From Comamonadaceae bacterium (GTDB taxonomy: Bacteria > Pseudomonadota > Gammaproteobacteria > Burkholderiales > Burkholderiaceae_C): a DNA stretch of 64,000 nucleotides. The stretch is from the NCBI GenBank assembly GCA_027485235.1, contig JAIXRJ010000046.1:496001-560000 (forward strand). The letters run 5' to 3'. Shown piece by piece: positions 2 to 56,930 of the stretch (its first letter is position 1; each line of letters begins with the position of its first letter). Both the position numbers and the translations under genes were made by a program. The notes beneath the pieces are model-generated. The model ran no database searches, was not told where the DNA came from, and saw only the letters and a list, made by a program, of their open reading frames with translations.

Positions 2-256
2 GCGCAAACGGACTGGTTTCAGGCCTGTGGCCGTGGCAAGGTCCACAGTTGGACGGTCTGTCACCACGCCTTTCATCCGTCCTTCGTTGCAGATCTGCCT
101 TACACCTTGGTCACCGTTGACCTTGAAGAAGGCGTGCGGGCGCTGGGCCGATGGCGCGGCACAAACCTCGCCATCGACGATGCTGTCGTCGCCCAATTCG
201 AACAGCGCAGCGAAGGGCCTGAGCTGTTCTTCACTGCCGCACCAAGCACCGAGTGA
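2..256 (+). CDS. DUF35 OB-fold domain protein (3' part)
   Basis: The window opens inside this gene; 84 codons are visible before a TGA. The residues (ACGRGKVHSWTVCHHAFHP, then a LVTVDLEEGVRALGRW-type strand) match the OB-fold half of DUF35 proteins. In that family an N-terminal zinc ribbon precedes the OB fold, and the protein usually partners a thiolase or ketoacyl-CoA enzyme in acyl-CoA metabolism. The zinc-ribbon part would lie upstream of the window. The stop overlaps the next start (TGATG), so it is translationally coupled to the phosphotransferase gene. The family call is by recognition; the partner thiolase is inferred and not visible. Confidence 0.75.
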   Translation, partial: AQTDWFQACGRGKVHSWTVCHHAFHPSFVADLPYTLVTVDLEEGVRALGRWRGTNLAIDDAVVAQFEQRSEGPELFFTAAPSTE

Positions 257-1365
257 TGAAAGCAACAGCCATGTCGCGCACGCAAGCTGATGTTCACGCT
301 GTTGACATCGATGACCCGGTGGCGCAAGTCGCCGACGGCATGCGCAGCCTGATCGCAGCAGCCATCCCCTCGGCACGCGAGATTGTGCTGAAAGATCTGG
401 TGCGAAGCGCAGGCGGTCTTTCACGCGAAAACTGGTCTTTTGACGTCACCTGGACCGACGACTCAGGAGTTCACACATTCCCTCTGATGCTCATGCGCGA
501 TGCTGCTGGCACGCTGCTGAACACTGAGCGCCAGCGCGAGTTTTCCGTACTCAAGGCGCTGGCCAACACCGATGTGCCTGCACCCCAGGTGTTCTGGATC
601 GACAAGCCTGGTCGCTGGCTGGGCTCACCTTCCATCGTGATGACACGCATGCCCGGGCAATGCGACTACATGGTCCTCAACAATTCGAGTCCGCTAGACG
701 TGCGCCTGGCATTGGCGCGAGCCTTTACCGGCCTGATGGCCAAGCTGCACGCTGTTGACTGGCAAAAGCATGGTCTCGCCAGCAGCCTGGGACTGCCTGA
801 AGGCAAGCCCTCGCTGCACGAGCTGGCTCACTGGGAGGCTGAGTACCAAAAGGCGCAACTCGAGCCACACCCCGAACTCGATTACATTCTGGCTTGGCTT
901 AAGCGCCGAGCCCCAAAGGCCGAAGCCATTGTGCTGGTGCATGGTGACTTCAAGCCGGGCAACGCGCTGGTGGAGGGCAAGCGCATCACTGCCAAGTTGG
1001 ATTGGGAGACCGTTCACTTGGGCGATCCGCTGGAAGACCTTGGCTGGGTGACCAACCCGGTGCGCAAGCGCGAGCACCAGATCCCAGGCCACTGGGAGCG
1101 GCAAGAAATCGTTGCGGCCTACCGCGATCTGACCGGTCGAACTGTGCGCGAGGCCGACCTGCTGTGGTGGAACGTGTTCTCTTGTTGGAAGTTGTCGGTC
1201 ATTCAGTTAACGGCTGTGGCCGAGTTTGTGGCAGGCCGCTACAACCGAGTGTTCCAAACCCCGACTTGGTTGTACCGGCCAATGTTCCAAATGATGGCGA
1301 CTGCAGAAAGCGCGCACAGCGCAGTCAGCATTGATGGCGCAGTGAGCGCAGGGAGTCAGTCATGA
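256..1365 (+). CDS. Phosphotransferase family protein (ACAD10/APH-like)
   Basis: A 369-aa kinase-fold protein of the aminoglycoside phosphotransferase / choline kinase clan. The Brenner-type catalytic motif HGDFKPGNALVEG and the metal-binding stretch KLDWETVHLGDPLEDLGW are both present. Family members of this type resemble the kinase part of human ACAD10, which phosphorylates 4-hydroxy fatty acyl-CoA in 4-hydroxy-acid catabolism. That role is an inference here. ATG 256 overlaps the previous stop; GTG 253 and ATG 271 are alternatives. It ends in an ATGA overlap with the next gene. A paralogue of the same family lies at 54539-55624. Confidence 0.85.
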   Translation: MKATAMSRTQADVHAVDIDDPVAQVADGMRSLIAAAIPSAREIVLKDLVRSAGGLSRENWSFDVTWTDDSGVHTFPLMLMRDAAGTLLNTERQREFSVLKALANTDVPAPQVFWIDKPGRWLGSPSIVMTRMPGQCDYMVLNNSSPLDVRLALARAFTGLMAKLHAVDWQKHGLASSLGLPEGKPSLHELAHWEAEYQKAQLEPHPELDYILAWLKRRAPKAEAIVLVHGDFKPGNALVEGKRITAKLDWETVHLGDPLEDLGWVTNPVRKREHQIPGHWERQEIVAAYRDLTGRTVREADLLWWNVFSCWKLSVIQLTAVAEFVAGRYNRVFQTPTWLYRPMFQMMATAESAHSAVSIDGAVSAGSQS

Positions 1366-1823
1366 GGCCGAGCATAGAAGAGCAATTGCAGGGCACCTGC
1401 CGAGTCCTTGAAACCGTCGTCGCACCATGCGTCAGCGACCCGATGGCCCGCACCATGCTGGATGGGCTCATCGCCAACCTGCGCATGCTCACTGTTGCCT
1501 TGCCCGCTGTGCCGGCCTTCCTGCGCCAAGACAACGCCAACACTGTGCAACTGCTGTTGGCGCTGGCCGGTTCGCTGCCTGTCGAACTCACAGCCCGGTT
1601 GGCCGACACCTTGAACAAGCCTGAGCCGGACCCTGCCGATGTGGCGGCCCTCGACGAACGCAACCAGAGTCTGCGCGAGCTTCTTGCACAGGCCGTTTGC
1701 GCCGAGCGCCTCACAGATGACCAACACCGCACCATCGTGAAGCACATGAGCGAGCGCGCGTCGCGCGTACCCATGCGTTACGTGGCAACAACGCCCAGCC
1801 CGCCCCCTACCGCGAAAACCTGA
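1362..1823 (+). CDS. Small helical protein of unknown function
   Basis: A 153-aa protein I do not recognise. It begins at an ATG overlapping the phosphotransferase stop (ATGA) and ends 3 bp before the next gene, so it is firmly inside the operon. The predicted chain is Ala/Leu-rich and mostly helical, without a signal peptide or membrane span, and ends in a Pro/Thr-rich tail (TTPSPPPTAKT). In sequence feel it resembles the short helical proteins annotated next to ACAD10-like phosphotransferases, possibly a chaperone or accessory subunit. No catalytic motif is seen. Confidence 0.75.
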   Translation: MRPSIEEQLQGTCRVLETVVAPCVSDPMARTMLDGLIANLRMLTVALPAVPAFLRQDNANTVQLLLALAGSLPVELTARLADTLNKPEPDPADVAALDERNQSLRELLAQAVCAERLTDDQHRTIVKHMSERASRVPMRYVATTPSPPPTAKT

Positions 1824-1826
1824 ACC

Positions 1827-2972
1827 ATGCTCACTCCTCTTGACGACACACTCAGCCACCAGCTGCCAACCACTTTCGACCATGTTTGGACCAGTGATCC
1901 GCGCTGGTTCGACCGCTACTGGTTCGCGATTTATTCGCAAGATGGCAGCGTCGCCATACAAATCACCATGGGTGCCTACCGCAACATGAATGTGCTGGAC
2001 GGCGGGGCTGTGATGGTGGTCGACAACAAACAGTACAACGTGCGGGTCTCCCGCTCCCTGGGCAGCAGCGTCGAGACCGCCTGTGGTCCGCTGCGGGTGC
2101 GTCCCATTGAACCGCTCAAATCGTTCGAGATCAGCATTGCCCCCGGCGAGCACGCGCTGCACGGTGAACTGCGGTGGGAATGCGTCGAGCCTGCGCACGA
2201 GGAACACCCGCACTACACGCGTCTTCAATCGCGCACCGTGGAGGACTACCGACGCTTCGACCAGATCGGCGTGGCCAGCGGCTGGCTGGAGGCAGGCGGC
2301 CGCCGCATCGAGATCGACCGCTGGTGGGCCTGCCGTGACCATTCCTGGGGTGTGCGCCGCGGCATGGGGGTGCCAGAGCCCGTCACGGGGCCCAAGGTGA
2401 CGCTGGCCGAGAAAGGGCACGTGATGTCCTTCCTGTTTTTCTCGACTGACACCATGAGCGGTTCACTGCTGTTTTCCGGCCGCGGCGACGACACACCTTA
2501 CACCACCGGCGTCGTCACGGACCGCCGCACACAAGAGCGGTACCACGCCTCAAAGATCGAGCTCAGCGTCGATCTGCATGAAGGGACGCGGCGCTTCAGT
2601 CAGGCCAGCGTCGACGTTACCCTGGAGGATGGCCGTCGCTTGCACATCGCCGTCCAGGCGCGTGGCTCGTCGATCGCCATGCAGGGTCTGGGCTACAGCG
2701 GCGGCTACAACGACGGAAAAGGTCTGGGCGCTTGGCGTGCGGAGAACCATTTGGAGACGGACGTCTGGGATGTCTCGCATCCGTCAAAAGTCATCTACCC
2801 CGATGGCACCCAGAAGGAACACTGGCACCGGATTCAGCCGGTAGGACTTAGTGCCAATCTCAACGGTGAGTCCAGTACAGGGATGGGCAGCATGACACTC
2901 ACCATCGCCGGCAAGCTACCGCAACACCTGCAACTGCAGTCGCAACAAGCTGGCGTGAACAAGCAGGCATGA
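1827..2972 (+). CDS. Lipocalin-like protein (AttH/CrtC-like, DUF7064 type)
   Basis: A 381-aa beta-rich soluble protein without a signal peptide. It carries a conserved WWACRDHSWGVRRGMG block (residues about 167-181) and a later HWHRIQPVGL stretch near the C-terminus. These features resemble the double-lipocalin fold of AttH / hydroxyneurosporene-synthase (CrtC)-like proteins, recently split into DUF7064/DUF7065. Members are common beside acyl-CoA genes, but no reaction is established. It lies 3 bp after the 153-aa gene, and its stop overlaps the next start (ATGA). A ligand-binding or hydratase-like role on a hydrophobic substrate is an inference. Confidence 0.65.
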   Translation: MLTPLDDTLSHQLPTTFDHVWTSDPRWFDRYWFAIYSQDGSVAIQITMGAYRNMNVLDGGAVMVVDNKQYNVRVSRSLGSSVETACGPLRVRPIEPLKSFEISIAPGEHALHGELRWECVEPAHEEHPHYTRLQSRTVEDYRRFDQIGVASGWLEAGGRRIEIDRWWACRDHSWGVRRGMGVPEPVTGPKVTLAEKGHVMSFLFFSTDTMSGSLLFSGRGDDTPYTTGVVTDRRTQERYHASKIELSVDLHEGTRRFSQASVDVTLEDGRRLHIAVQARGSSIAMQGLGYSGGYNDGKGLGAWRAENHLETDVWDVSHPSKVIYPDGTQKEHWHRIQPVGLSANLNGESSTGMGSMTLTIAGKLPQHLQLQSQQAGVNKQA

Positions 2973-4189
2973 CCGACATGACCTCCTCCGTGCTCGCTGA
3001 TTGCCTTCGTCCCGGTGATTGCGTCGTCATCGGTCAGGCCTGCGGCGAACCCGTCGGCCTGGTCTCGGACCTTTTCGCACAGGCGACGCGGCTCGGCCAT
3101 ATTGACGCGTTCTGCGGTTACTCGCTCAACCCGACCTGGGAGGGTCCTCTGCCGGACGCCCTGCGCGTGACGACCTATTGCGGTCTGGGCACGATGGGCA
3201 AGCTGCTCGCGCGCCAAGCTGCCAGGCTCATCCCTTCGTCACTCTCACAATTGTCTGCCCAACTGCGCTCGCGCAAGCTTGCAGCCGACGTTGTGCTGCT
3301 GCAGGTGGCGCCGGCCGATGCCGAGGGCTACCACAGCCTGGGCTGCGCCGTGGACTACACCTGGGATGCTGTCCAGATGGCGCGCCAGGTGGTGGTCGAG
3401 GTGAACCTCAACATGCCGGTGACGCGCGGTGCCCCCCGCTTACATCGCAGCCAGGTACTTGTGGCACGGCAGGGCGATGCACCCCTGCTCGAATCGCTGG
3501 TCGAGGAACCCAACGCCTTGCAGCGGCAATTGGCCCGCAACGTGGCCAGTCTGGTGCCGGACGGTGCCACGCTGCAGTTGGGCATTGGCAGCCTCGCCGC
3601 GGCGATCGCTGGCGAACTTCAGACGCGGCGTAGGCTGAAAGTGCGTTCGGGCATGGTGGGAGACTGGTTCCTGGGCTTGGTCGCCAGCGGCGCAATTGAC
3701 ACCACGGTGCCAGACGCCTGCATGGGGTCGTTGGCTGTGGGAAGTCAGCGCCTTTACCAGACACTGTTGCCCAAGGGGCCCCTCGGGTTCGCGCAGCCGG
3801 CCCAACTCGCCGTGCCGGTGGCGGGATCGCCGTTCATGGCCATCAACTCAGCGATCGAAGTGGATCTTGCTGGGCAGGTGAACGCCGAGTGGCTGGGTGA
3901 GCGCTACGTCGGCACCGTTGGCGGCCAGACCGACTACTTTCGTGCAGCACGAGCCTCAGCGGGCGGACTTGCGATTTTGGCGCTGACATCCAGCACAGCG
4001 CGCGGTAAGAGCCGGATTGTCCCGCACTGCAACCGCGTCACCTCGACTTATTGCGACGTTGATGTGATTGTGACGGAGCATGGCGTGGCAGACATCCGTG
4101 CCACCACTCTTCAGGAACGTTGCGAGCTGATTGCCGCCATTGCGTCGCCCGACCATCGAGACCCGCTCTTGCAGTCAGGACGATCCTGA
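2969..4189 (+). CDS. Acetyl-CoA hydrolase / CoA-transferase family protein
   Basis: A 406-aa member of the acetyl-CoA hydrolase / 4-hydroxybutyrate CoA-transferase family. Family marks are LQLGIGSLAAAIA (residues 202-214), NSAIEVDLAGQVNAEW (293-308), GTVGGQTDYFRAA (315-327) and VTEHGVADIRATT (368-380). The family normally moves CoA between acids through a glutamyl-CoA intermediate. Here the segment that carries the catalytic Glu (HTEM or HSEM in characterised enzymes) reads RSGM, with Gly at residue 228, so the chemistry may differ. It is the last gene of the plus-strand operon, starting in an ATGA overlap. The substrate cannot be told. Confidence 0.8.
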   Translation: MTDMTSSVLADCLRPGDCVVIGQACGEPVGLVSDLFAQATRLGHIDAFCGYSLNPTWEGPLPDALRVTTYCGLGTMGKLLARQAARLIPSSLSQLSAQLRSRKLAADVVLLQVAPADAEGYHSLGCAVDYTWDAVQMARQVVVEVNLNMPVTRGAPRLHRSQVLVARQGDAPLLESLVEEPNALQRQLARNVASLVPDGATLQLGIGSLAAAIAGELQTRRRLKVRSGMVGDWFLGLVASGAIDTTVPDACMGSLAVGSQRLYQTLLPKGPLGFAQPAQLAVPVAGSPFMAINSAIEVDLAGQVNAEWLGERYVGTVGGQTDYFRAARASAGGLAILALTSSTARGKSRIVPHCNRVTSTYCDVDVIVTEHGVADIRATTLQERCELIAAIASPDHRDPLLQSGRS

Positions 4190-4333: not shown

Positions 4334-5098
4334 TCACTGGCCGCGCCACTGGGGCGGCCGGCGCTGTGCAAACGCTGCAGCACCCTCGCGGGCGTCTTGG
4401 CTGGCCAGCACGGGGGCGGTGATGGGCTCTTGGCGCTCAAACATCTGGTCTATCGGCCAGTCTCGCTGCTCCACGATGACACGCTTGCTCGCGGCCACCG
4501 ACATGGGCGCATTGACCATGATGCGCCGCGCCAGTTGACGCGCTTCATGGAGCGCCTCTCCGGGTTCCACCACCGCATTGAACAGGCCGTAAGCGGCCAG
4601 CCGCTCGGCGCTGTAAAAGTCGCCGGTCAATGCCATCTCCATGGCGATGCGCTGGGGCAACAGGCGGGGCAGCCGCATCAGGCCGCCGGCAGCGGCAGCC
4701 AGGCCGCGCTTGGCTTCAGGCAGGCCAAACTGTGCATTGCGCGCCACCACCGCCAAGTCGCAGCACAGCATGGACTCAAAGCCCCCGGCCAGGCAGTAGC
4801 CCTCCACGGCGGCAATCAAAGGTTTGACAGGCGGCGTACGCGCCAAGCCCAAAATGCCGCGACCTTCCACACGCGTGACCTCACCACGCAAAAAAGCCTT
4901 GAGGTCCATGCCCGCACAAAAGTGACCGCCTGCCCCGGTCAGAATGCCGACGCGCAGGGCAGGGTTACGGTCCATCTCGTCAATCGCCGCGCACACCGCG
5001 TACGAGACAGCGCGGTTCACCGCGTTGCGCTGCTCAGGGCGGTTGATGGTGACGATCACCAAGCCATCGTCGTGTTCGACCAGCACTTCATCGGTCAT
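4334..5098 (-). CDS. Enoyl-CoA hydratase/isomerase (crotonase family)
   Basis: A 254-aa crotonase. The first oxyanion-hole strand HFCAGMDLKAF and the second block LAGGFESMLCCD are present. Both positions that are catalytic Glu in enoyl-CoA hydratase look conserved (the Glu of GGFES and the Glu of FGLPEAKRG), which favours true hydratase chemistry. It is the last gene of a minus-strand run after the flavin oxidoreductase (12-bp gap), in a set with an acyl-CoA synthetase and a Bug binding protein. The likely role is beta-oxidation of an imported organic acid. The exact substrate is unknown. Confidence 0.88.
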   Translation of the reverse strand: MTDEVLVEHDDGLVIVTINRPEQRNAVNRAVSYAVCAAIDEMDRNPALRVGILTGAGGHFCAGMDLKAFLRGEVTRVEGRGILGLARTPPVKPLIAAVEGYCLAGGFESMLCCDLAVVARNAQFGLPEAKRGLAAAAGGLMRLPRLLPQRIAMEMALTGDFYSAERLAAYGLFNAVVEPGEALHEARQLARRIMVNAPMSVAASKRVIVEQRDWPIDQMFERQEPITAPVLASQDAREGAAAFAQRRPPQWRGQ

Positions 5099-5110: not shown

Positions 5111-6241
5111 TCAATCGTGGGAATCGTTGAGCCGTTGCAGGCGCTCGACAGCTTCCAGGTATTCGGTCTGCATTCGGTACATCAACTCACGCACGCTGGT
5201 TTCTTCATTGATCATGCCCACCACCTGTCCGGCTGGCGCGGAGTAAAGGTCTTTGCGCTGGGCCCGTACCACGCGTGCGTGGGCTTCGTTGTAAAGAATG
5301 CCCTGCAAAGGTGTGGGCAGGTAAGAGGGCGCGCCTGGCTGCTCCCAAGCCTCAGACAGTTGACTTTTGATCATCCGCACAGTTTTGCCTGTGCGGGCCT
5401 TGCGTCTGACGGCATCGTCCGCGCGGGCTTCAAAGAGCACCCCTTTTTCAAATGGGTTGAGCTCGCTCTCACGCGTGCCCAGCCACACCGTGCCGCACCA
5501 CACACCTTGTGCACCCAGCGCCAGAGCGGCTGCAATTTGGCTGCCACGGGCGATGCCGCCGGCGGCCAGCACGGCCACGCCCTCGCCACAGGCCTCGACC
5601 ACCTGGGGCACCAACACCATGGTGGCAATCTCGCCAGTGTGACCGCCCGCCTCGGTGCCTTGGGCCACGATCACATCGACGCCTGCTGCGATGTGGCGCA
5701 CCGCGTGCTCGGCTTTGCCACACAGGGCGCCAATCAAGATGCCGCGATCACGCAACTCGGCCACCACGTCAGGCGGCGGAGAGCCTAAGGCGCTGACCAC
5801 AAAATTCACCTGCGGATGGGTCAGTGCGACCGCCAGCAGCCGCCTGGCACCGTCGGGGGTCATGTTGCCACGCCCATCGACAATTTCTTGTTCGATCCTT
5901 TCTTTCTCACCAGCGGGCAAGGCTGGCACGCCCGCCTGAGACAGCAGGTTTTCCATGAATTCCTTGTGGACCTGTGGAATCAGCGCGCGCAAGTCTTCGG
6001 TGCTGTCTTCTGAAGCCTGGTCGTAGCGCGTGGGGATGATCACATCTACGCCATACGGCCGGCCCTCGACATGTTGGTCGATCCAGCGCAGTTCGGCCTC
6101 GAGCTGCTGGGGTGAAAAGGTGGACGCGCCCAATACCCCGAATCCGCCAGCGCGGGTGACGGCGACCACCACGTCGCGGCAGTGAGAAAAAGCAAAAATC
6201 GGCAGCTCGCAGCCCAGCCGTTGGCACAAAGGGGTTTTCAT
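5111..6241 (-). CDS. NAD(P)H-dependent flavin oxidoreductase / nitronate monooxygenase family
   Basis: A 376-aa TIM-barrel flavoprotein of the 2-nitropropane dioxygenase / nitronate monooxygenase family. The FMN site AGGIARGSQIAAALALGAQG and the catalytic-type QGTEAGGHTGEI segment are clear. The start is placed at the ATG beginning MKTPLCQRLG; an in-frame upstream extension of 23 codons would run into the neighbouring gene and lacks conservation. Many family members next to acyl-CoA genes act as enoyl-type or quinone reductases rather than on nitronates, so the substrate is open. It lies 13 bp downstream of the acyl-CoA synthetase. Confidence 0.85.
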   Translation of the reverse strand: MKTPLCQRLGCELPIFAFSHCRDVVVAVTRAGGFGVLGASTFSPQQLEAELRWIDQHVEGRPYGVDVIIPTRYDQASEDSTEDLRALIPQVHKEFMENLLSQAGVPALPAGEKERIEQEIVDGRGNMTPDGARRLLAVALTHPQVNFVVSALGSPPPDVVAELRDRGILIGALCGKAEHAVRHIAAGVDVIVAQGTEAGGHTGEIATMVLVPQVVEACGEGVAVLAAGGIARGSQIAAALALGAQGVWCGTVWLGTRESELNPFEKGVLFEARADDAVRRKARTGKTVRMIKSQLSEAWEQPGAPSYLPTPLQGILYNEAHARVVRAQRKDLYSAPAGQVVGMINEETSVRELMYRMQTEYLEAVERLQRLNDSHD

Positions 6242-6254
6242 GGGACTTTCAGGT

Positions 6255-8468
6255 TCAAAATAAATGGTCAGCAGGCGCGTTGTGTTCGGGCGGGTTGACG
6301 GCTGGCCCATCGGGTCGCCAAACCATCAGAGCGTCAAGCGCTTCCACCTGATCGCCGCGCACCCACAGCGGATTGATGTCGAGTTCAAGCAGATCCGGCC
6401 CCAGTCCAGTAATGGCCTCACTGATGCGCGCAATCACCGTCGCCAGCACGTTCAGATCGGCGGCAGGCAAGCCGCGGTGGCCTTGCAGCAGTGGCAGCCC
6501 CCGCAAGCTTTTCAGCATTCGGAGTGCTTCCTTGGCGCTGACGGGCAGGGGTCGCAAAGCCACGTCCTGCAGCACCTCAACCCAGACGCCGCCCAAGCCG
6601 ACGGCCATCACAGGCCCCCACAGTGAATCGCGACTGAATCCGACCAGCAGCTCGGTGCCCGGCGCCCGCATGGGGGCCACCAGCACCCCATTGAGCTTGG
6701 CCTCAGGCGCATGCAGTCGGGCTGCGTTGGTGATTTGTGCAAAGGCTTCTCTGACGGCACGTTCACCGAGCAGGTTCAAAATCACCCCGCCCATGTCGCT
6801 TTTGTGGGCAATATCGGCGCTGGCCACCTTGAGCGCCACTGGTCCGTTCCAGGTCTGCGCGCACTGCACCGCCTGTTCGGCCGTCGTGGCCATGCGGCCG
6901 GGGACCACTGGTACGCCCCAAGAGGCCAGCGCGTCCAGTGCCTCGCGCTCAGAGCGTGGTCGCCCGGTTGGCTTGTACTTTTTAAAAGTAGGCGGCGGCA
7001 TGGAGGCAGGCAACGGCTCGGCTGAGTCATTGGATTCTTCTAAATAACGCTGTGACCATCGCGCCGCACCGGCCAAGCCGGCCAGCGCTCGGTCCATCCC
7101 GCAAGCCAGGTAATTGGCGCCTATTGCGGCAATCGTCTGGCGTGCCATGTCGTTCACCACTGCCGGCGTGTAGCTGACCAAGAAACCCGGCACACCAGCC
7201 TCACGCAGCCCTCGCACAAGGTGCAGGTGCAATGCGGTCAATCGTTCACTGGCCTGTTGGGGCTCGCTGGGAATGTCGTACCAGGGGCACACAAGTGCAG
7301 CACAACCGACCACGCTCGCCATGGCCCGCACTGCGCCCTCGCATTGTTCGGGGGTGACGGTACCGGTAAGATCGAGCGGGTTTTGGGCCGTGGCCACAGA
7401 CGGAATGGTGCACACCATCGCTGCTGATGCGGCGTCATTGAGTGGTGGCAGTACCAAGCCATGGCGGTGTGCGGTGTCGGCTGCAATCTCGCCCACCCCC
7501 CCCGAATTGGTCACGATGCCCACCCCCCTGCCGCGCAACACGCCGCAGCGGCCTGCGATGTCGGCGGTGGCCAGCAACTCCTCCATGGCGTAGGTGCGCA
7601 GGATTCCAAACTGCTGGCAAATGCCGTCAAACACCCTGTCATCCCCGACCAAGGCACCTGTATGCGCCAAGGCAGATTGGGCGGTCACCTCACTGGAGCC
7701 GACCTTCAACACCACCAAGGGTTTGCCAGCCCGCAAGGCCCGCGCGGCCACCCGTAAAAAGCGCTCCGGCTCCCGCACTGTCTCGGCGAAAACTGCAATA
7801 GAACGTGCTTGCGGCTCTTCAATCAAACAGTCGATAAAGCTCGTGATGTCCAGGTCTGCCTCGTTACCGGTTGAGATGACATGGCTCAGCCCCACGTCCT
7901 GCTGATGCGCCAATTGAGCAAGAAAATGCGCAGTGGCGCCGCTTTGTGACACGATCCCCACGCCATGTGTTCGCGAAGGCGCCTGAACGGGCGTGGTCCA
8001 GGCGATGGCGTTTTGCGTGAAGTTGATGAAGCCCAGGCAGTTGGGGCCCAGCAGCCGAATGCCGCGCCGCTTGGCCAAACCCAAAATAGCGTCTTGTTCG
8101 TCACGGCCTCTGGGGCCAAGCTCGGCATAGCCCGCGCTCAAGATGACGGCAGAGCGCCCACCAGCGTCAGCCAAGTCAGCCAGCGCCTGAGGCACGGCTT
8201 CACGGGGCACCATGATGAGCCCCAAGTCCAGTTGCTCACCCACGGCTGCGCAGTGGGTGGCGCAAACGCGGCCATGCGCTATCGCACCGCGCGGGTTGAC
8301 CAGATGGAGGCTGCCCGCATAAGCGTGGCGAACCAAGTTGTCGTGCACGCTGGTCGACCAGCGGGATTTGTCAGAGGCACCTATGAGGACCACGCATTGC
8401 GGTGCCAACAAGGCCCGGGCGGCATCGGCCAACTGGCTGTCGTGAAAGACATCCACGGGCCTTGACAT
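6255..8468 (-). CDS. Acyl-CoA synthetase, NDP-forming (acetate-CoA ligase family)
   Basis: A 737-aa fused NDP-forming acyl-CoA synthetase. It has a CoA-binding Rossmann domain (VLIGASDKSRWS near the N-terminus), a succinyl-CoA-ligase-like middle region with the phospho-His motif SALAHTGALVGDD (His near residue 269), and a C-terminal ATP-grasp domain (GPVALKVASADIAHKSDMGG; LLELDINPLWV). It would form acyl-CoA from a carboxylic acid with NTP hydrolysis to NDP and Pi. ATG 8468 follows the Bug gene stop by 1 bp; ATG 8486 is an alternative. It sits between a periplasmic acid-binding protein and beta-oxidation enzymes, which suggests activation of the imported acid. Confidence 0.87.
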   Translation of the reverse strand: MSRPVDVFHDSQLADAARALLAPQCVVLIGASDKSRWSTSVHDNLVRHAYAGSLHLVNPRGAIAHGRVCATHCAAVGEQLDLGLIMVPREAVPQALADLADAGGRSAVILSAGYAELGPRGRDEQDAILGLAKRRGIRLLGPNCLGFINFTQNAIAWTTPVQAPSRTHGVGIVSQSGATAHFLAQLAHQQDVGLSHVISTGNEADLDITSFIDCLIEEPQARSIAVFAETVREPERFLRVAARALRAGKPLVVLKVGSSEVTAQSALAHTGALVGDDRVFDGICQQFGILRTYAMEELLATADIAGRCGVLRGRGVGIVTNSGGVGEIAADTAHRHGLVLPPLNDAASAAMVCTIPSVATAQNPLDLTGTVTPEQCEGAVRAMASVVGCAALVCPWYDIPSEPQQASERLTALHLHLVRGLREAGVPGFLVSYTPAVVNDMARQTIAAIGANYLACGMDRALAGLAGAARWSQRYLEESNDSAEPLPASMPPPTFKKYKPTGRPRSEREALDALASWGVPVVPGRMATTAEQAVQCAQTWNGPVALKVASADIAHKSDMGGVILNLLGERAVREAFAQITNAARLHAPEAKLNGVLVAPMRAPGTELLVGFSRDSLWGPVMAVGLGGVWVEVLQDVALRPLPVSAKEALRMLKSLRGLPLLQGHRGLPAADLNVLATVIARISEAITGLGPDLLELDINPLWVRGDQVEALDALMVWRPDGPAVNPPEHNAPADHLF

Positions 8469-8469
8469 C

Positions 8470-9462
8470 TCAGAGTGCGATGCCAAGTTTTTTGACCACC
8501 GCAGACCAGCGGTTGACCTCGGCAGTCACGTACTGGCGCGCCAACTCAGGGCTTGACTTGGGAAAGGCTTGAATGCCGAGTTGGTCCAGCCGTTGCTGGA
8601 CCGATGGTTTTTGCATGGCACGCAATGTGGACCTCGCCAAAAAATCCACCACGTCGGCCGGAGTGCCTTGGGGAGCGGCCAACAAGTTTGAGGTTCCAGC
8701 AATCAGGTCGTAACCAGCTTCTCGCGCGGTAGGAATGTCGGGTGAAATTTTCTCTCGCGCCTCGGCCATGCTGCTGATGATGCGCAATTTGCCGCTCTTA
8801 TGGTGGGGCAGCAAGGTGCCTGATGTTTCCACGATAAATTGCACATTGCCCGCGATGGTGTCAGTGATCGCGCCAGCACTGCCGGCGTAGGGCACGTCCA
8901 GCACCTGCAGGCCGGCGCGGTCCTTGAACAGCTCGGCTGCCAAGTGCACCGTGGTCCCCAAACCGGCATGCCCATAAGACAGTTTGCCCGCATTGGCTTT
9001 ACAGTGGGCCACCAACCCTTGCAAGTCGGTCACGGGCAGGGCCGGGTTGACCGCAATGACAAAGGGCGCATTGGTGAGCAGTGCCACCCACTGAAAGTCA
9101 TCAATCGGGTTGTACGGCGGCTTGGCCCGAGAGATGGGTGCCGACACCGCGGTAGAGCCAGTGGCCAACATGAGGTGGCTGCCGTCTTTGGGGGCTCGCA
9201 GAAAATTCACCGCCACCGTCAGACCGCCCGCGCCAGGGCGGTTCTCCACCACCACGGGTCGACTGAGCTCCTCGCGCAGGGCGTCGGCCAAGATGCGTGC
9301 AAACAAGTCTCCGGAGCCGCCCGGAGGAAAGCCTACAAACAGCCTGGCCACCCCTTCGCTGGCGGGCATTTGCGCCGTGGCGCTCAGGCTGCTCATGCAC
9401 AGGCCGGCTGCGGCGCTGAGGATGTGGCGGCGTTGCAAAAAACCGGCGGTACCTTGGCTCAT
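8470..9462 (-). CDS. Bug-family periplasmic binding protein (tripartite tricarboxylate transporter type)
   Basis: A 330-aa extracytoplasmic solute receptor of the Bug/TctC family. An N-terminal secretion signal carries a twin-arginine-like RRHILSAAAG start and an Ala-rich end near ATAQ. Family marks are VGFPPGGSGDLFARI, VVENRPGAGG and the DVPYAGSAGA ligand loop. Such receptors bind carboxylates in the periplasm. No TctA/TctB membrane genes are present nearby, as is common for orphan Bug genes in Burkholderiales. It is the first gene of the minus-strand unit and probably defines its imported substrate. Confidence 0.9.
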   Translation of the reverse strand: MSQGTAGFLQRRHILSAAAGLCMSSLSATAQMPASEGVARLFVGFPPGGSGDLFARILADALREELSRPVVVENRPGAGGLTVAVNFLRAPKDGSHLMLATGSTAVSAPISRAKPPYNPIDDFQWVALLTNAPFVIAVNPALPVTDLQGLVAHCKANAGKLSYGHAGLGTTVHLAAELFKDRAGLQVLDVPYAGSAGAITDTIAGNVQFIVETSGTLLPHHKSGKLRIISSMAEAREKISPDIPTAREAGYDLIAGTSNLLAAPQGTPADVVDFLARSTLRAMQKPSVQQRLDQLGIQAFPKSSPELARQYVTAEVNRWSAVVKKLGIAL

Positions 9463-9761: not shown

Positions 9762-10838
9762 ATGAATCTCGGCTTCTTCACCATGCCCATGCACCCCATC
9801 GGCAAGGATTGGCAGCAATCTTTGCGTGAGGACAGGGAGGCATTCATCTTGGCCGACGAGTTGGGCTTCGTCGAGGGTTACTGTGGCGAGCATTCCACCG
9901 ACCCCGAAGAAAACATCACCTCCAGCGCGATTTTCATGGCCACGCTGGCCCATGCCACGCACCGCATCAAGTTGGGCACGGGCACGCTCAACATGCCCAA
10001 CCACCACCCGGCGGCGGTGGCCAGCGAAATTGCCATGCTCGACCACCTCTTGGGCGGGCGATTCATCTTGGGTATCAGCCCGGGCGCTCTGCCGTCAGAT
10101 TCCGAGGTCTTTGGCAACATGCACATGGCCAGGCCGGCCATGTTTTTGGAGGCCATCAACCAGGTCTTGCAAATTTGGGCGAGCGAGCCGCCCTACAACA
10201 TACAGGGCCAGTTCTGGAACATCAGCTCTGCGCGAACGCACATTCCTGAAACAGGCATGGGCACCATCCCCAAGCCGCTTCAGCGCCCGCACCCGCCCAT
10301 TGTGGTGACGGCGGTGGCCCCCTTCTCTCAGGGCATTGCCGAGGCCGCTGCTCGCGGGTGGGAGCCGATTTCCGCCAACTTTTTGCTGCCCAAGTGGGTG
10401 CGCACGCACTGGACTAAGTACGTCGAAGGCTGCGAGCGCAGTGGCCGCATGGCCGATGCGGCAAACTGGCGCGTGGCCAAAACGGTGTTTGTGGCCAAAG
10501 ACGACACCACCGCCAAGGCCTACGCGATGGACCCTGCAGGCCCTTACCACTACTACTACAACACCTTGTTCAAAAAGCTCAAACGGCGTGGCGCCCTGGG
10601 GGTGTTCAAGTCAGACCCTCAAATGCCGGACGACCAGGTCACGCTCGAAGGCGTCATGGAACAATTGGTCATCCATGGTTCACCAGACCGGGTGGTCGAT
10701 AAGCTCCATGAATTCCGAGAAGTCACAGGCGATTTCGGCACCCTGCTTTATGCGGGTGTGGACTGGAAAGATCCGGCGCTGGCCCGTCAGTCCATGACAC
10801 TGATGGCCGAAAAGGTGGCTCCCCTCGTGGGCCGCTGA
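9762..10838 (+). CDS. LLM-class (luciferase-like) flavin-dependent oxidoreductase
   Basis: A 358-aa bacterial-luciferase-fold monooxygenase. The N-terminal barrel strand MNLGFFTMPMHP, the GYCGEHSTDPEENITS loop, the THRIKLGTGTLNMPNHHP strand and the LLGGRFILGISPGALPSD segment are typical of F420- or FMNH2-using LLM enzymes. A good ribosome binding site (TAGGAG) precedes the ATG. Members often insert oxygen into cyclic ketones, nitriloacetates or terpenoid intermediates. The divergent Bug/acyl-CoA genes suggest it acts early in the same catabolic route. It needs a flavin reductase, and none is adjacent. Confidence 0.87.
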   Translation: MNLGFFTMPMHPIGKDWQQSLREDREAFILADELGFVEGYCGEHSTDPEENITSSAIFMATLAHATHRIKLGTGTLNMPNHHPAAVASEIAMLDHLLGGRFILGISPGALPSDSEVFGNMHMARPAMFLEAINQVLQIWASEPPYNIQGQFWNISSARTHIPETGMGTIPKPLQRPHPPIVVTAVAPFSQGIAEAAARGWEPISANFLLPKWVRTHWTKYVEGCERSGRMADAANWRVAKTVFVAKDDTTAKAYAMDPAGPYHYYYNTLFKKLKRRGALGVFKSDPQMPDDQVTLEGVMEQLVIHGSPDRVVDKLHEFREVTGDFGTLLYAGVDWKDPALARQSMTLMAEKVAPLVGR

Positions 10839-10931: not shown

Positions 10932-11687
10932 TCATTGTGCGTCGATACTGCCACGAGCATGCACTGGAAATTGCAAAACCAAGAGTTCTGCACCTTCACT
11001 TCCAGCTTGCATCAGGAAGTCTTCTTCATGCGAGCCGAAGGCGACAGTCATGGTGTGTGCCTCGGCGTCGTTGAGTTTGACTGAACCGCTTGTCACAATG
11101 TAATAACGCCCACCGTAAGGACTTTGCGTCGGCATTTGTTGACGGCTGCCCGGCGGCAGACGAACAAAGTGTGCCGCCAAGCCATCCGCGCGGGGGCCAA
11201 TTAAATTTTCGACGCTGGGTGCCATGAGTGCAGGCAAGTCACTGGTGCCAACCGAACCAGCCGGTACGCCATACGTTTGTTCGCGTTTTTGTCGGACGCC
11301 CGATCTGAGTCGTTCCAGTGATCCAGGCTTGTGAATGTACCAAGCCCCCGTGTCGCCCGACATGCGCAAGGTCAGGTACGAGACGCCTTCTGGCCCTGCG
11401 CTGATAGGGCCATACGCCGTTTCTGGCGCCGAGTAATGGACGTTGAGCCGATTAACACCATGTTTTCCGATCGACCCGCTGCCGGCCATGATGACCTGAA
11501 ATTGGTGCTCTAAGTGGAAGTGCGTCGGAGTCACCCAGAAAGGATCTTGCTCAACTAAAAAAGCCTGTGCGCCCGGATGTCTTTGCGTATGGGTGCCGAT
11601 GATGTCGGTGATTTGTCCTTCAAAAGTGTCTTTTTTAAGGACTTTTCTTCCGAGTTGTGCGGTTTCCCAGTTTTGAATTTTGAGCAT
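10932..11687 (-). CDS. Cupin-like protein of unknown function
   Basis: A 251-aa protein with a cupin-like segment near residues 60-75 (THFHLEHQFQVIMAGSG) and a second beta-rich half (GGRYYIVTSGSVKLNDAEAHTM), which suggests a bicupin. The start is ATG 11687, preceded by a GGGAGG ribosome binding site; a longer in-frame version lacks one. Conserved His and Glu side chains (HFHLEHQ) could bind a metal. No specific enzyme is recognised. It lies downstream of tRNA-Ser on the same strand, facing the luciferase-like gene. Confidence 0.7.
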   Translation of the reverse strand: MLKIQNWETAQLGRKVLKKDTFEGQITDIIGTHTQRHPGAQAFLVEQDPFWVTPTHFHLEHQFQVIMAGSGSIGKHGVNRLNVHYSAPETAYGPISAGPEGVSYLTLRMSGDTGAWYIHKPGSLERLRSGVRQKREQTYGVPAGSVGTSDLPALMAPSVENLIGPRADGLAAHFVRLPPGSRQQMPTQSPYGGRYYIVTSGSVKLNDAEAHTMTVAFGSHEEDFLMQAGSEGAELLVLQFPVHARGSIDAQ

Positions 11688-11775
11688 CTGGAGCCTCCCA
11701 AAGGGTCGTGAACTTGAAAGGCTAGCCCTGCTTGGGGGCGGGGATACCCGTTGGTTCAATTTGAGGTCTTTGTAC

Positions 11776-54538: not shown

Positions 54539-55624
54539 ATGAGTGCTTTTGATCATTTCGTGGGAACCCGGCCTGTCACGGGATCCCACGCCTTCGACAT
54601 CCCAGCTTTGGAGGCCTGGCTGGCTGCCAAGCTGCCCGGCTTTGCAGGCCCCTTGAGCGTGGAAATGTTCAAGGGCGGCCAATCCAACCCCACCTACAAA
54701 CTCATCTCGCCATCGCGTCAATACGTGATGCGGGCCAAGCCCGGCCCCGTGGCCAAACTGCTGCCCTCGGCGCACGCCATCGAACGCGAGTTTGCCGTGA
54801 TGCAAGGCCTGTACGGCACCGATGTGCCCGTGGCCCAAATGCATGTGCTGTGTGACGACGAGTCCATCATCGGTCGCGCCTTTTATGTGATGGAGTTTGT
54901 GCAAGGCCGTGTGCTGTGGGACCAATCCCTGCCCGGTTTCTTGGCCACTGAGCGCGGTGCCATCTACGATGAAATGAACCGCGTGCTGGCGGCGCTGCAC
55001 AAAGTCGACTTTGCCAAGCAAGGCCTGGTCAGCTATGGCAAACCCGGCAACTACATCGAGCGCCAAATCGGCCGCTGGAGCAAGCAATACGCAGCGTCCA
55101 TCACCCAGCCCATCCCCGAGATGGACCAATTGATCGCGTGGCTGCCGAACAACATTCCGGACAGCGCCAAAGACGAATCTCTGGTAGGCATCGTGCACGG
55201 CGACTACCGCCTGGACAACCTGATGTTCCACCCTTCGGAACCACGGGTATTGGCCGTCCTCGACTGGGAACTCTCCACATTGGGCCATCCCCTGGCCGAC
55301 TTCAGCTACCACTGCATGGCCTGGCACATCAAGCCCGGCACCTTCCGCGGCATTGGTGGGCTGGACTTGGCGGATTTGGGCATTCCTTCAGAAACCGATT
55401 ACATCCGTCGCTATTGCGAACGCACCGGCTTCACCACCCCTGAGGCACTGGCCAAGGATTGGAACTTCTACCTGGCCTACAACATGTTCAGGATCGCGGC
55501 CATTCTGCAAGGCATTGCCAAGCGCGTGGAAGACGGCACAGCTTCCAGCGATCAAGCCAAAACCTCTGGCGCAGGCGCGCGCCCCATGGCCGAACTGGCC
55601 TGGGAATTCGCCTGCAAAGCCTGA
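54539..55624 (+). CDS. Phosphotransferase family protein (ACAD10/11-like)
   Basis: A 361-aa kinase-fold protein with [18 protein letters not shown] (catalytic loop) and [21 protein letters not shown] (metal site). [15 protein letters not shown] and [21 protein letters not shown] are the ATP-binding N-lobe. This is the bacterial counterpart of the kinase part of ACAD10/ACAD11. It precedes an acyl-CoA dehydrogenase by 46 bp, reproducing as two genes the kinase-plus-dehydrogenase fusion of the animal proteins. That supports a role in 4-hydroxy fatty acid catabolism (inference). Confidence 0.9.
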
Positions 55625-55670
55625 CCCTTCGTTTTTCTTCACAACCCCCCTCACTTCAAGGAGACAGACC

Positions 55671-56930
<1,260 letters not shown>

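Follow-up and report, generated by a model that had tools for sequence, protein, structure and literature searches.

Gene organization at the start of the window

A 64,000-nucleotide stretch of a Comamonadaceae bacterium genome (assembly GCA_027485235.1, contig JAIXRJ010000046.1, positions 496,001 to 560,000; hereafter the window) opens with five closely spaced genes on the forward strand, three of which, encoding a kinase, a small protein of 153 amino acids (aa), and a lipocalin-like protein, are the subject of this analysis. In order, the five genes encode (i) an OB/DUF35 protein, of which the window holds the 3′ part (2..256; PF01796, 2e-13) and which in full combines a ChsH2-type zinc ribbon (zf-ChsH2) with an OB domain (OB_ChsH2_C), (ii) an APH-type kinase resembling ACAD10 and ACAD11, with intact HGD and DWE motifs (253..1365; PF01636, 3e-31), (iii) an all-helical 153-aa protein of a new family (1362..1823), (iv) a lipocalin-like protein of the Rv3169 family, homologous to 25-phosphosteroid lyase (25-PSL) (1827..2972; NF053593, 5e-80), and (v) a family I coenzyme A (CoA)-transferase (2969..4189; PF13336, AcetylCoA_hyd_C, 2e-34).

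The window begins inside the OB gene, which encodes 144 aa and starts upstream. The kinase gene overlaps the OB stop codon, its start being either GTG253 or ATG256, and is joined to the 153-aa gene by an ATGA overlap; a 3-bp gap then separates the 153-aa and lipocalin-like genes, and a second ATGA overlap leads into the CoA-transferase gene. The first-pass annotation, made from the sequence alone, had described five coupled genes, and a check of the open reading frames (ORFs) in the window recovers all of them with the same positions and overlaps. Domain and structure matches bear out its ACAD10-like kinase, lipocalin-like fold, and CoA-transferase-like protein. The five genes do not stand as a unit, however, being the distal end of a row of 12 co-directional genes that begins ~8.6 kb upstream of the window.

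Conservation of the gene set

Related loci were collected by one scan of genome contigs with the lipocalin-like protein, which returned 17 loci; the counts below refer to these 17 plus the window and, because the loci were fetched through similarity to the lipocalin-like protein, the adjacency result is valid for that protein's own subfamily. Most are metagenome-assembled genomes (MAGs) of Burkholderiales, several bearing lake or pond names; two are labelled alphaproteobacteria, and one is a Sterolibacteriaceae MAG. The lipocalin-like proteins of the fetched loci are 71-98% identical to that of the window.

In 17 of the 18 loci, the kinase, 153-aa, and lipocalin-like genes lie side by side on one strand; the contig of the remaining locus (L011) begins inside the 153-aa gene, so that nothing can be said of a kinase there. 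All 18 have the 153-aa and the lipocalin-like gene, the former partial in L011 and the latter cut in L019. The kinase and 153-aa genes overlap by 4 bp in 14/17 loci and are separated by 19-49 bp in L007, L009, and L018. The CoA-transferase gene follows in 15/18; L019 ends inside the lipocalin-like gene, and in L012 and L014 (2/18) the CoA-transferase is absent and a thiolase gene occupies its place. Thiolase and OB genes are found in 10/18. The lipocalin-like gene is split into two ORFs in L007, and L020 has internal gaps in both the 153-aa and the lipocalin-like gene, which may be assembly errors. The conserved core is the kinase, 153-aa, and lipocalin-like genes rather than all five, and the coupling of these genes exceeds chance. 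A single function, which the first-pass annotation had expected of the coupled genes, is likely; rare co-occurrence of the 153-aa and lipocalin-like genes with the others, which it had named as telling against its view, is not what this subfamily displays.

Two of the loci, L005 and L014, come from MAGs named Akkermansia and Bordetella, although their kinases closely resemble those of the lake MAGs L006 and L012; misbinning or mislabelling may account for these names.

A wider sample of the Rv3169 family comprised 27 loci, namely 19 from the 21 matching phylum genomes (398 searched; the genome analyzed here and one sub-threshold genome were excluded) plus 8 plasmid loci, selected by us from 25 records. 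An APH kinase lies within 5 kb of the Rv3169-family gene in 20 of these 27 loci, against ~0.5 of 27 expected at the density of the window's own genome (5 APH genes in 3.19 Mb), other genomes being possibly denser. Three Rhodococcus plasmids in the sample, pUSK13_1 (L094), pRB98 (L095), and pROB02 (L096), carry Rv3169-family genes together with kinases and CoA enzymes, and the latter two also carry cytochromes P450.

The lipocalin-like protein

The match to the Rv3169 family model NF053593 (269 bits) exceeds the curated cut-off of 150 bits, while the Pfam match to DUF7065 stays below its cut-off. A PDB sequence search at E ≤ 1 returned solely 25-PSL entries (9fzn/9g2i and 9g4c, released January 2026), with E-values of 4e-29 for the single sequence and 2e-35 for a profile. 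In a Foldseek search with an AlphaFold2 (AF2) model, the first five matches are likewise 25-PSL chains (2e-19 to 2e-18, TM 0.65-0.68), followed by lipocalin-fold pericyclases, kievitone hydratase, and AttH at 5e-8 to 2e-6. By these comparisons the protein is a homologue of 25-PSL and belongs to the lipocalin fold class.

The printed alignments of 9fzn and 9g4c differ at one position, an Asp replaced by Asn in the stretch R-D/N-RSWGVR. Since the title of the Asn entry, 9g4c, names a complex with phosphate and the alkene product, this Asp is probably catalytic. Its counterpart in the window, D171 (the Asp of RDRSWGVR in 9fzn), is therefore a probable catalytic residue; it is identical in all 14 members of the subfamily alignment, which took in 14 of the 18 loci, and in 96% of the 27 wider family loci. 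Besides this Asp of the RDxSWGVR stretch, the Arg set of 25-PSL is present as R170, R177, R76, and R30. A larger group of residues (H11, Q12, D24, R30, Y51, D58, R76, E126, R132, R136, R143, R170, W174, and R177) is kept in 85-100% of the 27 and shared with 25-PSL. We propose that the lipocalin-like protein acts as a phosphate-eliminating lyase, for which a steroid substrate is doubtful. The first-pass annotation had counted two members of the cluster without a known reaction; this description still suits the 153-aa protein and no longer the lipocalin-like one.

The kinase

Structural relatives of the kinase include 9o56, 3dxp, 3ats (which we take to be Rv3168), ACAD11 (8v3v), and 9fsg, presumably the 25-hydroxysteroid kinase (25-HSK), a guess from the neighbouring entry number. 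The enzyme is proposed, from its homology, to act on an alcohol, either a hydroxyacid or a hydroxyacyl-CoA. In a tree of 54 rows with several long branches, the 17 kinases of the cassette loci form one clade with 100/100 support, which the pROB02 kinase joins at 98/90. This clade stands apart from 14 of 16 kinases of DUF6285 loci (see below), which form their own clade, and from an ACAD10/11-type kinase encoded elsewhere in the window. The latter belongs to a second APH kinase gene followed by an HHCMR-containing acyl-CoA dehydrogenase gene (54539-56930), an ACAD10/11-type pair in the form of two genes and without a 153-aa gene. As judged from sequence, one genome thus encodes two different hydroxyl-removal systems.

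The 153-aa protein

Neither Pfam nor NCBIfam offers a match for the 153-aa protein. Its AF2 model, which has five helices and a predicted local distance difference test (pLDDT) score of 86, retrieves nothing from the PDB at E ≤ 0.001. Polar residues are highly conserved within the family, which is a new helical family as far as Pfam/NCBIfam scans and literature searches go. The gene is rare: among 200 genomes of the same taxonomic family it is found in the window's genome alone, two other sampled genomes of the genus being negative, and among 369 genomes of the class in that genome plus one weak partial match; a search of plasmids gave no match.

Diverged small proteins occupy similar positions elsewhere. 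L077 and L078 repeat the gene order of the cassette, with a protein of 160 or 151 aa encoded between kinase and lyase; on pRB98 and pROB02, the kinase gene is followed by one for a protein of 177 or 173 aa. Compared with these four small proteins, the 153-aa profile beats 150/150 column shuffles over columns 2-55, and the four in turn beat 150/150 shuffles against nine DUF6285 proteins (9 of 13 DUF6285 rows were used). The L078 small protein has weak matches in 11/249 phylum genomes, the best of which (G388) is the kinase-linked L077 gene, and no match among plasmids.

DUF6285 itself occurs in 14 of 200 phylum genomes, and an APH kinase gene adjoins it in all 14 loci. In two of these, G244 (L033/L092 6866-8326) and G284 (L093 8060-9421), kinase and DUF6285 share one open frame, and an acyl-CoA dehydrogenase with an HCMR motif lies within the fetched stretch of 9/14. 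A literature search turned up no paper naming DUF6285. LvaB, the small partner of the levulinate kinase LvaA, is presumably a DUF6285 protein. In Pseudomonas putida, LvaB has a mass of 12 kDa and is recovered with LvaA in pull-downs (PMC6692424).

Because the 153-aa protein takes the place that LvaB or DUF6285 has beside related kinases, and is weakly linked to such proteins, it is probably a partner subunit of the kinase, an assignment held with moderate confidence. That it is an independent enzyme or carrier and no kinase subunit is unlikely but has some claim: its polar residues are highly conserved, no solved fold resembles it, and its profile link to DUF6285-like proteins is weak. Against an independent role speak the ATGA overlap with the kinase gene in 14/17 loci, the all-helical model, the DUF6285-like gene position, and the single frame that DUF6285 and the kinase share in 2/14 loci.

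Proposed reaction

An intact kinase beside a homologue of 25-PSL suggests dehydration by phosphorylation and subsequent elimination of phosphate. We consider it fairly likely that the kinase, the 153-aa protein, and the lipocalin-like lyase make up an ATP-dependent dehydration cassette that works in this manner and feeds β-oxidation; the alcohol it dehydrates is most likely a hindered, probably tertiary, one. In the proposed sequence, (i) the kinase, with the 153-aa protein as its partner subunit, would phosphorylate a non-oxidizable, probably tertiary, hydroxyl of the acid or its CoA ester, (ii) the lipocalin-like lyase would eliminate phosphate to leave an alkene, and (iii) the alkene would enter β-oxidation through the acyl-CoA dehydrogenase of the row, an enoyl-CoA hydratase, and the thiolase-fold/DUF35 pair. 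The CoA-transferase of the last gene would charge the (hydroxy)acid with CoA. What the sequence data establish is the order of the genes, their homologies, the conserved motifs, and the fold class of the lyase; the reaction, the part played by the 153-aa protein, and the substrate are deduced. A broader formulation is offered tentatively: the cassette could be a three-component ATP-dependent dehydratase for tertiary-alcohol terpenoid acids, with a kinase and small partner serving as a general hydroxyl-activating unit that is coupled to either of two unrelated eliminators, the flavin enzyme of LvaC and ACAD10/11 or the present lyase.

The choice of eliminating enzyme bears on a second route, which we regard as improbable, in which a 4-hydroxyacid is processed as by LvaABC or ACAD10/11: a 4-phosphoacyl-CoA would lose its phosphate to a flavin dehydrogenase, and the lipocalin-like protein would be an accessory. 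Homology of the kinase to ACAD11 suits this route, as does the last gene, whose nearest relatives are 4-hydroxybutyrate CoA-transferases (9vag, 9e-53); its AINSAIEVDL stretch aligns with theirs and keeps the Glu of SAIEVDL, presumably the catalytic one. Among the five best own-genome matches, moreover, three acyl-CoA dehydrogenases contain HCMR, one of them in the window. HCMR is the phosphate-eliminating signature of LvaC and ACAD10/11 (PMC12440821). The dehydrogenase of the gene row, however, reads LIQAIR where ACAD10/11-type enzymes read HCMR (aligned by eye), and was rejected as an LvaC-type enzyme on that account. The stretches fetched for the 18 loci contain no HCMR dehydrogenase, and the separate kinase-HCMR pair of the window lacks a 153-aa gene and has its kinase elsewhere in the tree. 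With LIQAIR in the dehydrogenase of the row, the lyase is the natural eliminating enzyme.

Several observations weigh against phosphorylation and lyase-catalyzed elimination by the three core proteins. The sequence alignment of the lyase with 25-PSL is limited to residues 2-185, Foldseek reports only 22-23% identity with a root-mean-square deviation of ~8 Å, and the AF2 model has a mean pLDDT of 70, with the first 29 residues and some loops poorly modelled. In the wider family, 7/27 loci have no kinase within 5 kb and a small kinase-linked protein is present in 4/27. The kinase is closer to 9o56, 3dxp, and ACAD11 than to 9fsg, so that its substrate class cannot be read off. As regards the small proteins, the hhalign probability is only 26% between the 153-aa protein and the four diverged ones and only 66% between these four and DUF6285, and when L077 and L078 are compared alone 2/150 shuffles score equally high. 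Direct assignment of the 153-aa protein to DUF6285 (PF19802) was discarded, there being no Pfam match and a profile comparison within noise (3/150 shuffles). Finally, plasmid locus L094 holds an HCMR dehydrogenase together with an Rv3169-family gene, which argues against a strict either-or between the two eliminating enzymes.

Surrounding genes and candidate substrates

The upstream part of the gene row lies on a fetched stretch (L002) in which the window starts at L002:12001. It opens with an AMP-forming CoA ligase (L002:3364-4995) and a cyclase-family protein (L002:4992-5891), followed in order by a CaiB-type CoA-transferase, an acyl-CoA dehydrogenase, a TctC solute-binding protein, a flavin-containing monooxygenase (FMO)-like enzyme (L002:9351-10664), a thiolase-fold protein (ending at L002:11818), and the complete OB gene (L002:11822-12256), after which come the kinase, 153-aa, lipocalin-like, and CoA-transferase genes. 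The 12 genes are inferred to form a single transcript. An IclR regulator gene lies upstream on the opposite strand (L002:2436-3173). About 3 kb upstream of the row, L002:3-311 is a fragment with an HTH_21 domain, which we take to be typical of IS3-type transposases; together with the patchy distribution of the cassette, it hints at mobility.

Among solved structures, the thiolase-fold protein has its best match in 4u4e (4e-74), followed by Ltp2 (6ok1, 2e-67), and its gene adjoins that of a ChsH2-type OB partner (PF01796 and PF12172), the arrangement of Ltp2 or Sal with a DUF35 protein. The OB/DUF35 protein therefore probably pairs with it in the Ltp2 manner. As to retro-aldol versus thiolytic activity, the signs are mixed: in what we take to be the usual nucleophile stretch, the thiolase-fold protein has GGAS and no Cys, but it has a His where 6ok1 has Tyr. 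In L005 (6700-8421), L006, and L007, an extra enzyme, acetolactate synthase-like by eye, is encoded between the OB and kinase genes.

Downstream of the CoA-transferase gene, a convergent row on the reverse strand encodes an enoyl-CoA hydratase (4334-5098; PF00378, 1e-49; NF006100 above cut-off), a nitronate monooxygenase-type flavin mononucleotide protein (5111-6310; PF03060, 5e-45), an ADP-forming acyl-CoA ligase (6255-8486; PF13549, 2e-63; PF13607, 3e-41), and a TctC solute-binding protein (8470-9462; PF03401, 4e-57). Relatives of the hydratase occur in 6/18 loci and of the nitronate monooxygenase-type protein in 4/18. Beyond this row lies a forward-strand gene (9762-10838) for a luciferase-like monooxygenase that, among solved structures, is closest to 3,6-diketocamphane 1,6-monooxygenase (4uwm, 5e-30), an enzyme of the terpenoid Baeyer-Villiger type. 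It is followed on the reverse strand by a gene (10932-11759) whose product has no Pfam or NCBIfam match and is cupin-like by eye; relatives lie near the cassette in L004, L009, L012, and L014.

Luciferase-like monooxygenases are also found near the cassette in L004, L016, and L019, flavin reductases in L009, L016, and L019, the FMO-like enzyme in 7/18 loci (in L013 and L017 it is 54% identical and encoded on the opposite strand), and the cyclase-family protein in 12/18. The monooxygenases, flavin reductases, cyclase-family protein, and CoA ligases are consistent with a terpenoid or alicyclic acid. When a ketone flanked by a quaternary carbon undergoes Baeyer-Villiger opening and the lactone is then hydrolyzed, the product is a tertiary-alcohol acid; a route that ends in such an acid would need a cassette of the present kind. 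The candidate that we favour, though it is speculative and the least certain part of the proposal, is a tertiary-alcohol acid that arises when a gem-dimethyl terpenoid or alicyclic ketone has its ring opened by Baeyer-Villiger oxidation. Two points count against it: no monooxygenase is universal (4/18 for the luciferase-like and 7/18 for the FMO-like enzyme, on contigs that are cut), and the TctC proteins would suit small acids too. The hydroxylated or terpenoid acid suggested in the first-pass annotation was a sensible guess.

Degradation of a sterol or bile-acid side chain, in which an ordinary 25-HSK/25-PSL pair would act alongside an aldolase of the Ltp2/Sal type and its DUF35 partner, is likewise improbable. 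It would account for the homology to 25-PSL, for the Ltp2 match of the thiolase-fold protein and its ChsH2-type OB partner, and for the locus in a Sterolibacteriaceae MAG. The steroid-ring enzyme IpdE2, however, has no match above cut-off in the genome, which makes a sterol less likely as far as a single-marker test goes, no steroid-ring genes were recognized, mostly by eye, among the recurrent neighbours, and the nearby monooxygenase is of diketocamphane type. Very improbable indeed is a hydratase or pericyclase like CrtC, AttH, or a Diels-Alderase, with the kinase phosphorylating something unrelated: the fold is common to kievitone hydratase, AttH, and Diels-Alderases, but those matches are some ten orders of magnitude weaker than 25-PSL, a kinase lies near the lyase in 20/27 loci, and Asp171 and the Arg set are shared with 25-PSL.

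Comparison with known systems

A gene set of this kind probably enables some environmental bacteria to remove a stubborn hydroxyl from an organic acid. Ordinary β-oxidation cannot proceed past a tertiary alcohol. If the dehydration cassette functions as proposed, its ATP-driven formation of alkenes would account for the ability of bacteria to deal with natural products that are branched or have had a ring opened. It would also suggest what the Rv3169 family, present in actinobacteria too, does, provide a tool for enzymatic dehydration, and give the small helper proteins beside such kinases a testable role. The chemistry is already known in kind, phosphorylation followed by loss of the phosphate being described for sterols (PMC8449060) and, with a different eliminating enzyme, for 4-hydroxy acids (PMC12440821, PMC11342911). 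The pathway that the first-pass annotation called undescribed is to that extent familiar; what is new, as far as literature and family-library searches show, is the clustering of the three genes, the family of the 153-aa protein, and a setting that probably does not involve sterols.

The thiolase-fold protein and its adjacent ChsH2-type OB protein resemble the steroid aldolases Ltp2-ChsH2(DUF35) and Sal-Shy, in which the DUF35 domain binds the aldolase (PMC11321319). Unlike in those systems, there is no MaoC hydratase among the annotated genes of the row.

In Mycobacterium tuberculosis, the APH-type kinase Rv3168 (3ats) adjoins Rv3169, a pairing similar to that of the cassette. The two genes form a TetR-regulated operon, and the accessible text mentions no 153-aa gene (PMC5340868).

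LvaA-LvaB-LvaC of levulinate catabolism and mammalian ACAD10/ACAD11 use ATP to remove a hydroxyl by way of a phosphorylated intermediate, as is proposed for the cassette. LvaABC also has a kinase with a small partner, although the small partners are at best distantly similar. In these systems an HCMR-containing flavin acyl-CoA dehydrogenase eliminates the phosphate, a role proposed here for the lipocalin-like lyase.

A parallel in chemistry is found in Sterolibacterium denitrificans, whose kinase phosphorylates the tertiary C25 hydroxyl of its steroid substrate, with elimination of phosphate to the alkene assigned to a separate C-O lyase (PMC8449060, PMC7411048, and PMC11061730, in their available sections). 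Within those sections, the 2021 paper (PMC8449060) gives no lyase candidate close to the kinase gene, and the 2021 and 2024 papers describe the lyase as putative or its gene as unknown; a wider literature search yielded nothing further on the lyase. Both systems combine a kinase with a lipocalin-like lyase, and the two lyases have the Asp and Arg residues in common at ~22% identity. In the present loci, by contrast, kinase and lyase genes are linked, joined by the gene for the 153-aa protein, and set amid genes for CoA enzymes and terpenoid-type monooxygenases.

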